NCBI GenBank assembly: GCA_947500445.1
Contig: CANMSB010000001.1
Span: 372,001 to 436,000, forward strand
Source of the DNA: an uncultured Flavobacteriaceae bacterium
GTDB taxonomy: Bacteria; Bacteroidota; Bacteroidia; Flavobacteriales; Flavobacteriaceae
Direction of reading: 5' to 3'
DNA length: 64,000 nucleotides
A program made the position numbers and the translations under genes. The notes under the pieces were generated by a model. That model did no database searches and was not told the origin of the DNA. It saw only the letters and a program-made list of their open reading frames with translations. This document shows, in pieces, positions 35,210 through 39,005 of the stretch (position 1 is the stretch's first letter; the number at the start of each line of letters is the position of its first letter).

Positions 35210-35217
35210 TAATTTTG
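35210..35217 (+). promoter_or_regulatory. Promoter -7 box (TAATTTTG) of the cysteine-synthase-like gene
   Basis: Exact TAnnTTTG match 44 bases before the ATG at 35262. Confidence 0.45.
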
Positions 35218-35261: not shown

Positions 35262-36302
35262 ATGCAAAACGAAATACAAGCGCACGATAATATACTGGCC
35301 CTAGTGGGAAATACACCGCTGGTAAAGTTGAACAAGATCGTAGCGGATATTGAAGGTGCATTTTATGCTAAGGTAGAGGCATTGAATCCGGGCCATTCTT
35401 CCAAAGACCGCATAGCGCTCCACATTATTGAGGAGGCCGAGCGAAAAGGACTGCTTCAAAAAGGCGACACAATTATCGAAACCACCTCTGGTAATACGGG
35501 ATTTAGTATTGCCATGGTGAGTATTATAAAGGGATATGATTGTATTTTGGCGGTAAGCTCAAAATCGAGTCCGGATAAAATCGATATGCTCCGTGCCATG
35601 GGGGCCAAGGTTTATGTCTGTCCGGCGCATGTTAGTGCCGACGATCCACGATCGTACTACCAAGTGGCAAAAAGACTTCACGAAGAAACCAAAGGAAGTA
35701 TCTATATTAATCAATACTTCAACGAATTGAATACCGCTGCCCATTACAACACTACGGGACCGGAAATTTGGGAACAGACAAACGGTAAGATAACCCATTT
35801 GGTGGCCTGTAGCGGTACCGGGGGGACCATCTCCGGAACGGCACGTTTTTTAAAAGAGCAGAATCCGGATATACAGGTTATCGGTGTGGATGCCTATGGT
35901 AGCGTGTTAAAAAAATATCATGAAACCGGGGAGTTCGATGCCAACGAAATTTATCCCTACCGTATTGAAGGTCTTGGAAAAAACCTGATTCCTTCCGCTA
36001 CGGATTTTACGGCTATTGATACGTTTATTAAAGTTACCGATGAGGAAAGTGCCCATATGGCGCGCCATATTTCCAAAACTGAGGGTATTTTTGCAGGATA
36101 TACCTGTGGTGCGGTGATGCAGGCCGTAAAACAGCTTGGTGAATTGAATACATTCACCGCTGAAAGCAAAGTGGTCGCCATATTTCCCGACCACGGCTCG
36201 CGATACATGAGCAAGGTATACAGTGATTCCTGGATGGAAGCGCAGGGCTTTTTGAACGAAAATGCCACCGAGGAGACACCAAAGGTCCAGGTGATACGGT
36301 AA
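35262..36302 (+). CDS. PLP-dependent cysteine synthase/CBS-fold enzyme; candidate L-cysteate synthase
   Basis: A 346-residue fold-type II PLP enzyme. The Schiff-base lysine is K48 in NPGHSSKDR; the substrate loop is TTSGNTGFS near 77; the phosphate loop is [11 protein letters not shown] near 186; the C-terminal [16 protein letters not shown] is as in bacterial CBS-like proteins. Two usual substrate-contact segments differ: NPGNSVKDR-type reads NPGHSSKDR and the GNSAGAA-type loop reads AGYTCGAV, suggesting a substrate other than O-acetylserine or homocysteine. Its neighbour is an alpha-oxoamine synthase, which makes CapA-type cysteate synthase (phosphoserine plus sulfite to cysteate) a good candidate. 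A plain cysteine synthase remains possible. TTG at 35259 is disregarded in favour of ATG. Confidence 0.75.
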
Positions 36303-36421
36303 TCCCTTTAAAAACAGAATATAGGATGAGCAATGATGTCGATATATCGTTGCTTTTTTTTGTTCACGATCTACTGTTCAAAAACTAAGAAAAAGAGGTG
36401 GGTAACTACCCAAAAAATATA

Positions 36422-36429
36422 TACTTTTG
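36422..36429 (+). promoter_or_regulatory. Promoter -7 box (TACTTTTG) of the oxoamine synthase gene
   Basis: Exact TAnnTTTG match 17 bases before the ATG at 36447; places the longer frame from 36333 out of consideration and gives this gene its own promoter in addition to any read-through. Confidence 0.55.
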
Positions 36430-36446
36430 CAACAAATATAGTACTG

Positions 36447-37706
36447 ATGAGAGATTTGTTCGATAGGATCATTGAAAATAAAGGGCCTTTGGGAAAATGG
36501 GCTTCACAAGCGGAAGGATATTTTGTTTTTCCACAACTGGAAGGACCGATTTCCAATAGGATGCAGTTTCAGGGCAAGGAAGTGATTACCTGGAGCATCA
36601 ATGATTATCTAGGGATGGCCAACCTACCCGAAATAAAACAAATCGATAGTGAGGCCGCTGCGGAGTTCGGTGCTGCATACCCGATGGGGGCGCGTATGAT
36701 GAGCGGTCATACCAAATATCATGAACAACTGGAAAAAGAACTTGCCACATTCGTGAGCAAAGAATCGGCTTATTTGTTGAATTTTGGGTACCAAGGAATC
36801 ATGTCGGCCATAGATGCATTGGTATCGAAAGACGATATTATTGTGTATGATGTAGATTCCCACGCTTGTATTATAGACGGCGTACGTTTGCATATGGGCA
36901 AGCGTTTTACCTTCAAGCACAACGATATCGAAAGTCTTGAAAAGAACTTGGAACGTGCCGTTAAAATGGCGGAAACCACTGGTGGTGGTATCTTGGTCAT
37001 TTCTGAAGGCGTATTCGGAATGCGAGGTGAGCAAGGTCGATTGAAAGAGATCGTAGCTTTAAAGAAAAAATACAATTTTCGTCTTTTGGTAGACGATGCA
37101 CATGGTTTTGGAACACTGGGAAAAACAGGTGCCGGGGCAGGAGAGGAGCAAGGGGTTCAAGATGATATCGACGTCTACTTCGCCACTTTTGCGAAGTCCA
37201 TGGCCAGTATCGGTGCTTTTTTGGCCGCCGATAAGGAAATTATCGATTACTTGAAATACAACCTGAGGTCTCAAATGTTCGCCAAGTCCCTTCCCATGAT
37301 CTATGTAAAGGGAGCATTAAAGCGGTTGGATATGATGCGCAACGATCCCAAAATGAAGGAGAAACTTTGGGAGAACGTAAATGCCTTGCAAAACGGACTT
37401 AAAGATCGCGGTTTTGATATCGGTACCACTACAAGCTGTGTGACTCCTGTATACCTAAACGGAAGTATTCCGGAAGCGATGGCATTGGTAAAAGACCTTC
37501 GGGAAAACTACGGAATATTCTGTTCCATAGTTGTTTATCCGGTAATACCTAAAGGATTGATTTTACTTAGGATGATTCCTACCGCCACCCATACCCTGGA
37601 CGACGTTTCGGAAACCTTGGAAGCGTTTTCGGCAATTCGGGATCGACTGGAAAATGGCACTTACAAACGCCTTTCCGCTGCCGTTGCTGCTGCAATGGGC
37701 GAATGA
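36447..37706 (+). CDS. Alpha-oxoamine synthase (serine palmitoyltransferase-like); candidate cysteate C-fatty acyltransferase
   Basis: A 419-residue fold-type I PLP enzyme of the SPT/KBL/AONS group, which condenses an amino acid with an acyl thioester and releases CO2. Visible are WSINDYLGMANLPEI, GARMMSGHTKYHEQLEKELA, YDVDSHACIIDGVRL, the PLP-ring aspartate/histidine in LLVDDAHGFGTLGKTGAG, and the Schiff-base lysine in FATFAKSMASIGAF near residue 250. In flavobacteria such enzymes make the 3-keto precursor of capnine from cysteate (CapB/SulA) or of sphingolipids from serine. Placement after a cysteate-synthase candidate favours the sulfonolipid reading. Start at 36447 fits promoter position and family length. 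Confidence 0.8.
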   Translation: MRDLFDRIIENKGPLGKWASQAEGYFVFPQLEGPISNRMQFQGKEVITWSINDYLGMANLPEIKQIDSEAAAEFGAAYPMGARMMSGHTKYHEQLEKELATFVSKESAYLLNFGYQGIMSAIDALVSKDDIIVYDVDSHACIIDGVRLHMGKRFTFKHNDIESLEKNLERAVKMAETTGGGILVISEGVFGMRGEQGRLKEIVALKKKYNFRLLVDDAHGFGTLGKTGAGAGEEQGVQDDIDVYFATFAKSMASIGAFLAADKEIIDYLKYNLRSQMFAKSLPMIYVKGALKRLDMMRNDPKMKEKLWENVNALQNGLKDRGFDIGTTTSCVTPVYLNGSIPEAMALVKDLRENYGIFCSIVVYPVIPKGLILLRMIPTATHTLDDVSETLEAFSAIRDRLENGTYKRLSAAVAAAMGE

Positions 37707-37880: not shown

Positions 37881-39005
37881 TTATATGTCGATGTTTTTTT
37901 TGAAGGTTGCCCTGCGTTTGTGTATAACAGGCTCAAAGTGCTTCCACATTTGCCGAATAGCAACATTATCTTCTAGCTCGGGCGTACGATAGCACATGTC
38001 AATTTTGTTTGCGGTAAAGGTTTTGTAATACTCATTAAAAATAATGGCCGTAACTCCTTTGTTCTGATAATCCGGATGGATCCCAATGAGGTAAAAGTGC
38101 ACGTCCCGGTGCTTTTTTTTCGCTTTTAGCAAATGGTAAAATCCGAAAGGAAACAGCTTGCCATTGGCTTTTTGTAATGCCTTTGAAAAAGAGGGCATTA
38201 CTATGGCGAAGGCGATGAGCTGCTCTTTGGAATCCACGATAAACTTGATGTACTCCGGATTGATGAAGCTAATATACTTTTTCTTGAAATAGGCTATTTG
38301 TGCATCTGATATGGGCACAAAAGAAGAAAGCTTGTCATAAGTTTGGTTGAACAGTGCGAACATTTGATCGGCCAGGGGGAGAATATCCTTGGTATTGTCA
38401 AAGTTCAATTCCTTGAGCTTATAACGCTTTTTCACCAAGTCGTTCAGTCTGGTAAACAGTGCCGGATCGGCATTTTTGGCCGGAAACTTGTTTTCCACAT
38501 AACCTTTTTCCTTTTTAAAGCCATGCTGCGTATAATGGTCGGCATAATAGGGATGGTTGTACCAAGTGACCATACTTCCAATTTCCGTAAATCCTTCGGT
38601 AAGCACTCCCACCTTGTCAAGGTTGGAAAATCCGACCGGCCCTTCAATAAATTCGAGCTGGTGTTCGCGTCCGATTTCCGCAATCTTGTTCAACAACGCC
38701 TCGGATACCGCAGTGTCGTCTATAAAATCGAACCAGCCAAAGCGAACTTTGGGTATTTGTTGTTGTTTCACCTCCACCCAGTTGATGATGCCTACAATGC
38801 GCCCCACCAGTTTATTGTCTTTATAGGCGAGGTAAAACCATGCGTCCGCATTTTTAAATGCCGGGTTCGTGTTTTTGTCAAAAGCGTTCAGTTCGTCCGA
38901 AATCAATGGTGGCACCCAGTAGGGAGAGTCCCTGTACAGGGAAAAAGGAAACTTTATGAAGGTTTTTAGATCTGCCTTGCTAACAGCTTCTTTTAAGATG
39001 ACCAT
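37881..39005 (-). CDS. Long GNAT-like acyltransferase family protein; candidate capnine N-acyltransferase
   Basis: A 374-residue protein of a family common in Bacteroidota and sometimes mislabelled GTP cyclohydrolase; no cyclohydrolase motif is present. The N-terminal half (FIKFPFSLYRDSPYWVPPLISDELNAFD, AYKDNKLVGRIVGIINW, FGWFDFIDD) has a GNAT-like strand-helix pattern, and the C-terminal half has a second GNAT core with the acyl-CoA region FYLIGIHPDYQNKGVTAIIFNEYYKTF near residue 310-335. Bacterial ceramide synthase (bCerS) is a similarly sized GNAT-type N-acyltransferase. Convergent with the oxoamine synthase 174 bases away. Role as sulfonolipid or sphingolipid N-acyltransferase is my inference. 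Confidence 0.7.
   Translation of the reverse strand: MVILKEAVSKADLKTFIKFPFSLYRDSPYWVPPLISDELNAFDKNTNPAFKNADAWFYLAYKDNKLVGRIVGIINWVEVKQQQIPKVRFGWFDFIDDTAVSEALLNKIAEIGREHQLEFIEGPVGFSNLDKVGVLTEGFTEIGSMVTWYNHPYYADHYTQHGFKKEKGYVENKFPAKNADPALFTRLNDLVKKRYKLKELNFDNTKDILPLADQMFALFNQTYDKLSSFVPISDAQIAYFKKKYISFINPEYIKFIVDSKEQLIAFAIVMPSFSKALQKANGKLFPFGFYHLLKAKKKHRDVHFYLIGIHPDYQNKGVTAIIFNEYYKTFTANKIDMCYRTPELEDNVAIRQMWKHFEPVIHKRRATFKKNIDI

Follow-up and report, generated by a model that had tools for sequence, protein, structure and literature searches.

The window analysed here is a stretch of 64,000 nucleotides from an uncultured Flavobacteriaceae bacterium. Within it, two genes lie directly next to each other, as the sequence-only reading of this DNA had described them: both are open, both run along the forward strand, and the second ends where that reading had placed its end. 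We refer to these genes as capA and capB, and to a third gene, which is convergent with capB, as the GNAT gene (Table 1). For capB, we favour the start listed in the table over the mechanical ORF start at 36333, because the alignment of the protein with PDB 28eh starts at the first residue of each chain.

Table 1. Features at the capA-capB locus, with positions counted from the first nucleotide of the window.
Feature	Position	Strand	Basis
Possible capA promoter box TAATTTTG, match to TAnnTTTG (taken as the Bacteroidota -7 type)	35210..35217	+	sequence; 45-52 nt before capA
capA, predicted cysteate synthase, fold-type II PLP enzyme, 346 aa; ATG start	35262..36302	+	NCBIfam NF053679 score, PDB 9k2p identity, invariant residues
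Perfect inverted repeat TGGGTA-AC-TACCCA	36399..36412		
Probable capB promoter box TACTTTTG	36422..36429	+	TAnnTTTG enrichment upstream of capB
capB (sulA/cfat), predicted cysteate fatty-acyl transferase, alpha-oxoamine synthase (AOS), 419 aa; ATG start	36447..37706	+	PDB 28eh and 7u7h matches, invariant residues
GNAT-fold acyltransferase, 374 aa; candidate capnine N-acyltransferase (hypothesis)	37881..39005	-	Pfam, predicted structure, co-occurrence, tree

Of 77 usable named loci, 68 carry the motif TAnnTTTG, which we take to be a Bacteroidota -7 type promoter box, no more than 150 nt from the start of capB, compared with 8.5 after base shuffling; the box was mostly situated at -25 to -40. 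This enrichment suggests that capB probably has its own promoter. The inverted repeat is found a short way upstream of the probable capB box and could be an operator. An Rfam search returned no match, and a tRNA search returned no tRNA.

The first gene had been read as a fold-type II PLP enzyme from two motifs. Both are indeed present, NPGHSSKDR at residues 42-50 and AGYTCGAV at residues 278-285, and the protein matches the Pfam domain PALP (PF00291) with 264.7 bits. The further proposal that it is of the CapA type was borne out by the NCBIfam equivalog model for CapA, NF053679, against which it scored 640.9 bits (cut-off 600). The nearest solved chain, PDB 9k2p, is 63.5% identical; its deposited name is PLP-dependent protein beta subunit. 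The CapA-type loops are present as well: a KDR containing the PLP lysine, and a GYT that replaces the loop of CysK and CBS. By inference, these loops would bind the substrate. K48, Y280 and T281 were invariant across 88 CapA loci (86 distinct sequences); the loop residue H45 varied, being histidine in 78, glutamine in 7, leucine in 2 and asparagine in 1.

Could the first gene instead encode an ordinary cysteine synthase or CBS core that merely sits beside an AOS enzyme? The fold is common to both, chains named as CBS reach 271 bits and 46.5% identity (the latter for PDB 26fv, deposited as a probable CBS), and most of the loop residues are shared. Placement among these enzymes was looked for directly, and the protein missed every one of their curated cut-offs (CBS, 387.1 of 510.25; CysK, 264.3 of 350.95; CysM, 251.9 of 394.2). 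Moreover, the same genome encodes a separate CysM at another locus (L174), which clears both CysM cut-offs (468.7 bits against 413, 401.9 against 394.2), scores just 197.8 on the CapA model, and adjoins a serine O-acetyltransferase (158.5 bits; EpsC cut-off 150). Given the family cut-offs, the separate CysM and the invariance of Y280-T281, we rejected this alternative, which we consider very improbable. This CysM is one of the two matches besides CapA that the genome yielded at E 1e-10. The other is a CBS/CysK-like CapA paralogue on contig 9 (L173:1483-2490) that is 53% identical to the CapA of the window; because it falls below both the CapA cut-off (463.8 of 600) and the CBS cut-off (397.2 of 510.25), it is named by neither model.

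The second gene had been read as an AOS resembling serine palmitoyltransferase (SPT), of the CapB/SulA type. Its Pfam domain is Aminotran_1_2 (PF00155; 123.3 bits), and no NCBIfam model matched it over its cut-off, so the assignment to CapB rests on its neighbours in the PDB and on specific residues. Both were clear. The protein scored 719.9 bits against PDB 28eh, which was deposited as a cysteate-C-fatty acyltransferase and is 72.6% identical over 419 aligned residues, and 575.8 bits against PDB 7U7H, which is SulA of Alistipes finegoldii (PMC9304779) and is 60.2% identical. The best SPT reached 241.2 bits, and identity to the SPT in PDB 3a2b was 33.9%. It has been suggested that Lys281 of SulA, which is an alanine in SPT, may serve to tell the two enzymes apart (PMC9304779). 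This signature lysine corresponds to K280 in the CapB of the window, and we found it in all 118 CapB-type loci (those above 350 bits, comprising 116 distinct sequences). None of 11 other AOS had a lysine at this position; it was alanine in all 10 SPT-linked AOS and asparagine in one AOS from the same genome as the window. The AOS catalytic residues K250, H139, N52 and R375 (Lys251, His140, Asn53 and Arg376 of SulA) were likewise present in 118 of 118 CapB-type loci.

These data bear on the alternative that the second gene encodes a serine palmitoyltransferase or a Kbl/BioF-type enzyme. CapB and SPT share the AOS fold, and the top NCBIfam match of the protein was in fact an SPT model (NF047600), but the score was far below the cut-off (294.9 of 640), and the scores and identities to solved CapB/SulA-type chains and the presence of K280 led us to reject the alternative; we consider it very improbable. 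The genome does encode two other AOS, which scored lower (181 and 135 bits). We detected no SPT in this genome, for which the Bacteroidota SPT model at E 1e-120 gave no match; at the same threshold, the model matched 223 of 296 genomes sampled across the phylum, none of which were among the 30 from the family of the window. When we searched the same 296 genomes with CapB, the matches listed fell into one group at or above 396 bits and another at or below 250 bits. We treat the 108 genomes of the upper group as capB-positive. Within the Flavobacteriaceae, capB was present in 338 of 346 sampled genomes.

We then examined the pairing of the two genes. Among named capB loci, ordered by their similarity to one flavobacterial CapB, 80 were fetched and 12 were dropped because they had less than 5 kb of flank on a side. 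In 65 of the remaining 68, capA was located no more than 5 kb from capB, with a median gap of 156 bp. The pairing is thus more than chance. It is not universal, because only 12 of 30 capB loci from the phylum-wide search had a capA match in their flanks of approximately 1.5 kb (22 had a GNAT match).

Altogether, the membership of both proteins in their families, the intact signature residues, the pairing of the genes and the failure to detect an SPT in the genome indicate that this pair very probably represents the start of a capnine (sulfonolipid) pathway in a member of the Flavobacteriaceae, as the sequence-only reading had proposed. The reactions and the lipid product are inferred by analogy with published enzymes. 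CapA would use PLP to replace the phosphate of O-phospho-L-serine with sulfite, yielding L-cysteate. CapB would then condense the PLP-cysteate aldimine with a fatty acyl thioester, probably an acyl-ACP, with loss of CO2 to give 3-ketocapnine. A reductase encoded elsewhere would convert 3-ketocapnine to capnine, and an N-acyltransferase, for which there is a candidate only, would produce the mature sulfonolipid. This scheme follows the published route, in which CapA makes cysteate from phosphoserine, CapB performs the condensation with a fatty acyl thioester, and the reductase CapC/KCR produces capnine prior to N-acylation (PMC10191378; PMC11211663; PMC9304779). The 3-ketocapnine reductases are described as scattered SDR-type genes that do not cluster, and those tested in two species were not beside other genes of the pathway (PMC11211663).

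The same two families acting in the same order are described for CapA and CapB of Capnocytophaga ochracea (C7M8J5 and C7M8J6) and for Cys and CFAT of Chryseobacterium gleum (PMC10191378; PMC11211663). On comparison with these published descriptions, nothing is known to differ. In contrast, Alistipes is reported to make cysteate with an archaeal-type synthase (PMC10191378), in place of which the window locus has CapA. The CapA-CapB pair is known biology and ordinary for its family, and since the first steps of the pathway are already published, our finding adds one more member. Its practical value is that the gene pair marks a probable producer of sulfonolipids, which are sphingolipid-like membrane lipids of gliding bacteria. 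Links to gliding, choanoflagellate development and immune responses have been reported for these lipids (PMC9304779; PMC11211663).

During the phylum-wide analysis, we also noticed single ORFs of 1108-1143 aa in three Bacteroidota genomes (G179, G219 and G254; ORFs at L033:3472-6852, L034:2145-5576 and L035:9571-12897) in which an AMP-binding domain, a phosphopantetheine-attachment domain and an AOS are fused. The AOS portions are of the CapB type (396-427 bits), and the proteins look as though the activation of fatty acids, their carrier and the condensation step had been joined in one chain. Such fusions fit an acyl-ACP as the acyl donor, as has been reported for SulA.

The N-acylation step could matter more than the pair itself. 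The sulfonolipid route is described as having four steps with enzymes named for three of them (PMC11211663). The portion of the review PMC10191378 available to us names no enzyme for N-acylation, and neither did the literature within the scope of our search, outside of which most subscription papers fall. Capnocytophaga has been reported to hold free capnine (PMC9304779). GNATs that track with capB would provide a short list of candidates for this step, and we put forward the window GNAT, along with a second group described below, as a lead of this kind, that is, as a hypothesis.

The window GNAT matches the Pfam family Acetyltransf_1 weakly (23.0 bits, cut-off 20.7). An NCBIfam search gave it no family name, and a sequence search of the PDB found no relatives at E 0.1. 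Its predicted structure (pLDDT 90.4) has a GNAT fold and resembles tandem GNATs, the best PDB structural match being the tandem GNAT 2wpw (E 2.2e-15, TM 0.58-0.66). The structure search gave no pointer to long-chain substrates. The window GNAT is a distant relative of GNATs linked to SPT: in 59 of 68 genomes typed for both, a subset of the 223 SPT genomes, a GNAT relative was encoded within 1.5 kb of SPT. A gene of the epimerase family follows in 4 of 10 SPT loci, and in 2 more it flanks SPT on the opposite side; one of these six was named by Pfam.

To place the window GNAT among these relatives, we constructed a phylogenetic tree of 89 GNATs, which was rooted at its midpoint. One clade (96/90) holds 9 of the 10 GNATs from SPT operons, together with both proteobacterial ones. 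The window GNAT, which adjoins capB rather than SPT, is situated outside of this clade in the other major part of the tree, within a large clade that also includes the one remaining SPT-linked GNAT (L047). The sister of the SPT-linked clade is a clade of 20 GNATs from capB-positive genomes (100/99), which we denote clade W. Inside the large clade, a subclade of 39 rows (99/96) contained only GNATs from capB-positive genomes: 28 from Flavobacteriaceae, 5 from f2, 4 from f23 and 2 from the same class. The capB labels of these 28 and of the W rows are not independent tests, because the sequences were selected via capB or from the list of capB-positive genomes. The large clade has 19 other rows, whose sources are capB-negative Bacteroidota, Chloroflexota, Bacillota and four capB-positive genomes; taken as a whole, it is therefore not bound to capB.

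We next considered whether GNATs and capB occur in the same genomes. In the 346 Flavobacteriaceae genomes, a GNAT of the window type was found in 316 at E 1e-60; 315 genomes had both it and capB, 23 had capB only, 7 had neither, and a single genome, a 360-contig assembly (G580), had the GNAT only. Ten of the 30 GNAT-negative genomes in these counts were derived from the list of positives. Fisher's test gave p 1.4e-7 for the co-occurrence, a value that ignores relatedness and the joint deletion of neighbours. Of the 23 genomes with capB only, G385 encodes a GNAT of the W type; the other 22 yielded no hit with the W query at E 1e-6. In an unselected search of the phylum with one W protein as the query, W-type GNATs (at least 214 bits) were found in 34 of 296 genomes, corresponding to 34 of the 108 capB-positive and 0 of the 188 capB-negative genomes. 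Left out of this count were five rows at 191-199 bits, all in capB-positive genomes; four of these lie beside SPT and one (G235) does not. Among SPT-positive genomes of the same class, W occurred in all 7 that also had capB and in none of the 3 that lacked it (p 0.008, without correction for relatedness), and W was absent from 6 of the 34 capB-positive genomes of the class. In loci from Mesonia, Salegentibacter and Gillisia (L094, L109 and L121), the GNAT gene between capB and metA is missing, and the order of capA, capB, metA-like, yfhO and GT4 genes is kept.

Two readings of the window GNAT deserve weighing. The one that we judge reasonably probable is that it has an unrelated acceptor and is a bystander, located near capB only through general synteny. 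In the same 68 loci, the genes within 5 kb of capB included a metA-like gene in 45, yfhO in 46, ybaB in 52, an S9 peptidase gene in 61 and the GNAT gene in 44. We therefore rejected adjacency to capB as evidence: flanking genes are linked to capB at least as often, and the adjacency belongs to a wider block of general synteny. For the same reason, the joint loss of capB and the GNAT gene may be one deletion. The S9 peptidase gene is kept in 7 of the 8 capB-negative family genomes (G580 had no match). In the stretches fetched around it from these seven genomes, ybaB was the only other window gene found, in 3 of 7, so the joint loss could have been a single event. The GNAT gene is also convergent with capB, it is absent from 23 of the 338 capB-positive family genomes, and relatives from its large clade are also found in genomes without capB and in other phyla, with no apparent neighbour in common. 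Clustering of the ORFs around such relatives in capB-negative genomes revealed no recurrent functional neighbour; two pairs of ORFs recurred, one of them encoding a tRNA pseudouridine synthase. Furthermore, the fetched 10 kb beside capB in Leeuwenhoekiella polynyae (L139) contains no GNAT gene, and L. parthenopeia has been reported, from a putative MS identification, to hold sulfobacin A (PMC9859067). Against the bystander reading, the GNAT occurs without capB only once in the 346 family genomes, in the 360-contig assembly G580; it is absent from 7 of the 8 capB-negative genomes of the family; and it is homologous to the GNATs beside SPT.

The second reading, which we hold to be possible but rather doubtful, is that the GNAT beside capB N-acylates capnine or 3-ketocapnine in the Flavobacteriaceae, and that clade W, the sister of the SPT-linked GNATs, does likewise in other families. 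If true, enzymes of the ceramide-synthase superfamily would have been recruited at least twice for the last step of sulfonolipid synthesis. CerS homologues have been reported in Bacteroides and Prevotella copri (PMC10865984). A GNAT from Sphingomonas that is 26% identical to the window GNAT is encoded in a region with NAD(P)H-binding, ACP, AOS, lptF and lptG genes. This region resembles the CC_1168-CC_1152 region of Caulobacter, which includes the N-acyltransferase CC_1154, a bacterial ceramide synthase (bCerS/CerS) (PMC11324152); the comparison with CC_1154 is one of gene region. A further member of the same GNAT superfamily is E. coli YghO, encoded on a plasmid (L197:1344-2486; 27% identity), which adjoins genes for a fatty acyl-AMP ligase (FAAL), an epimerase, an ACP and an AOS, as well as lptF/lptG-type genes.
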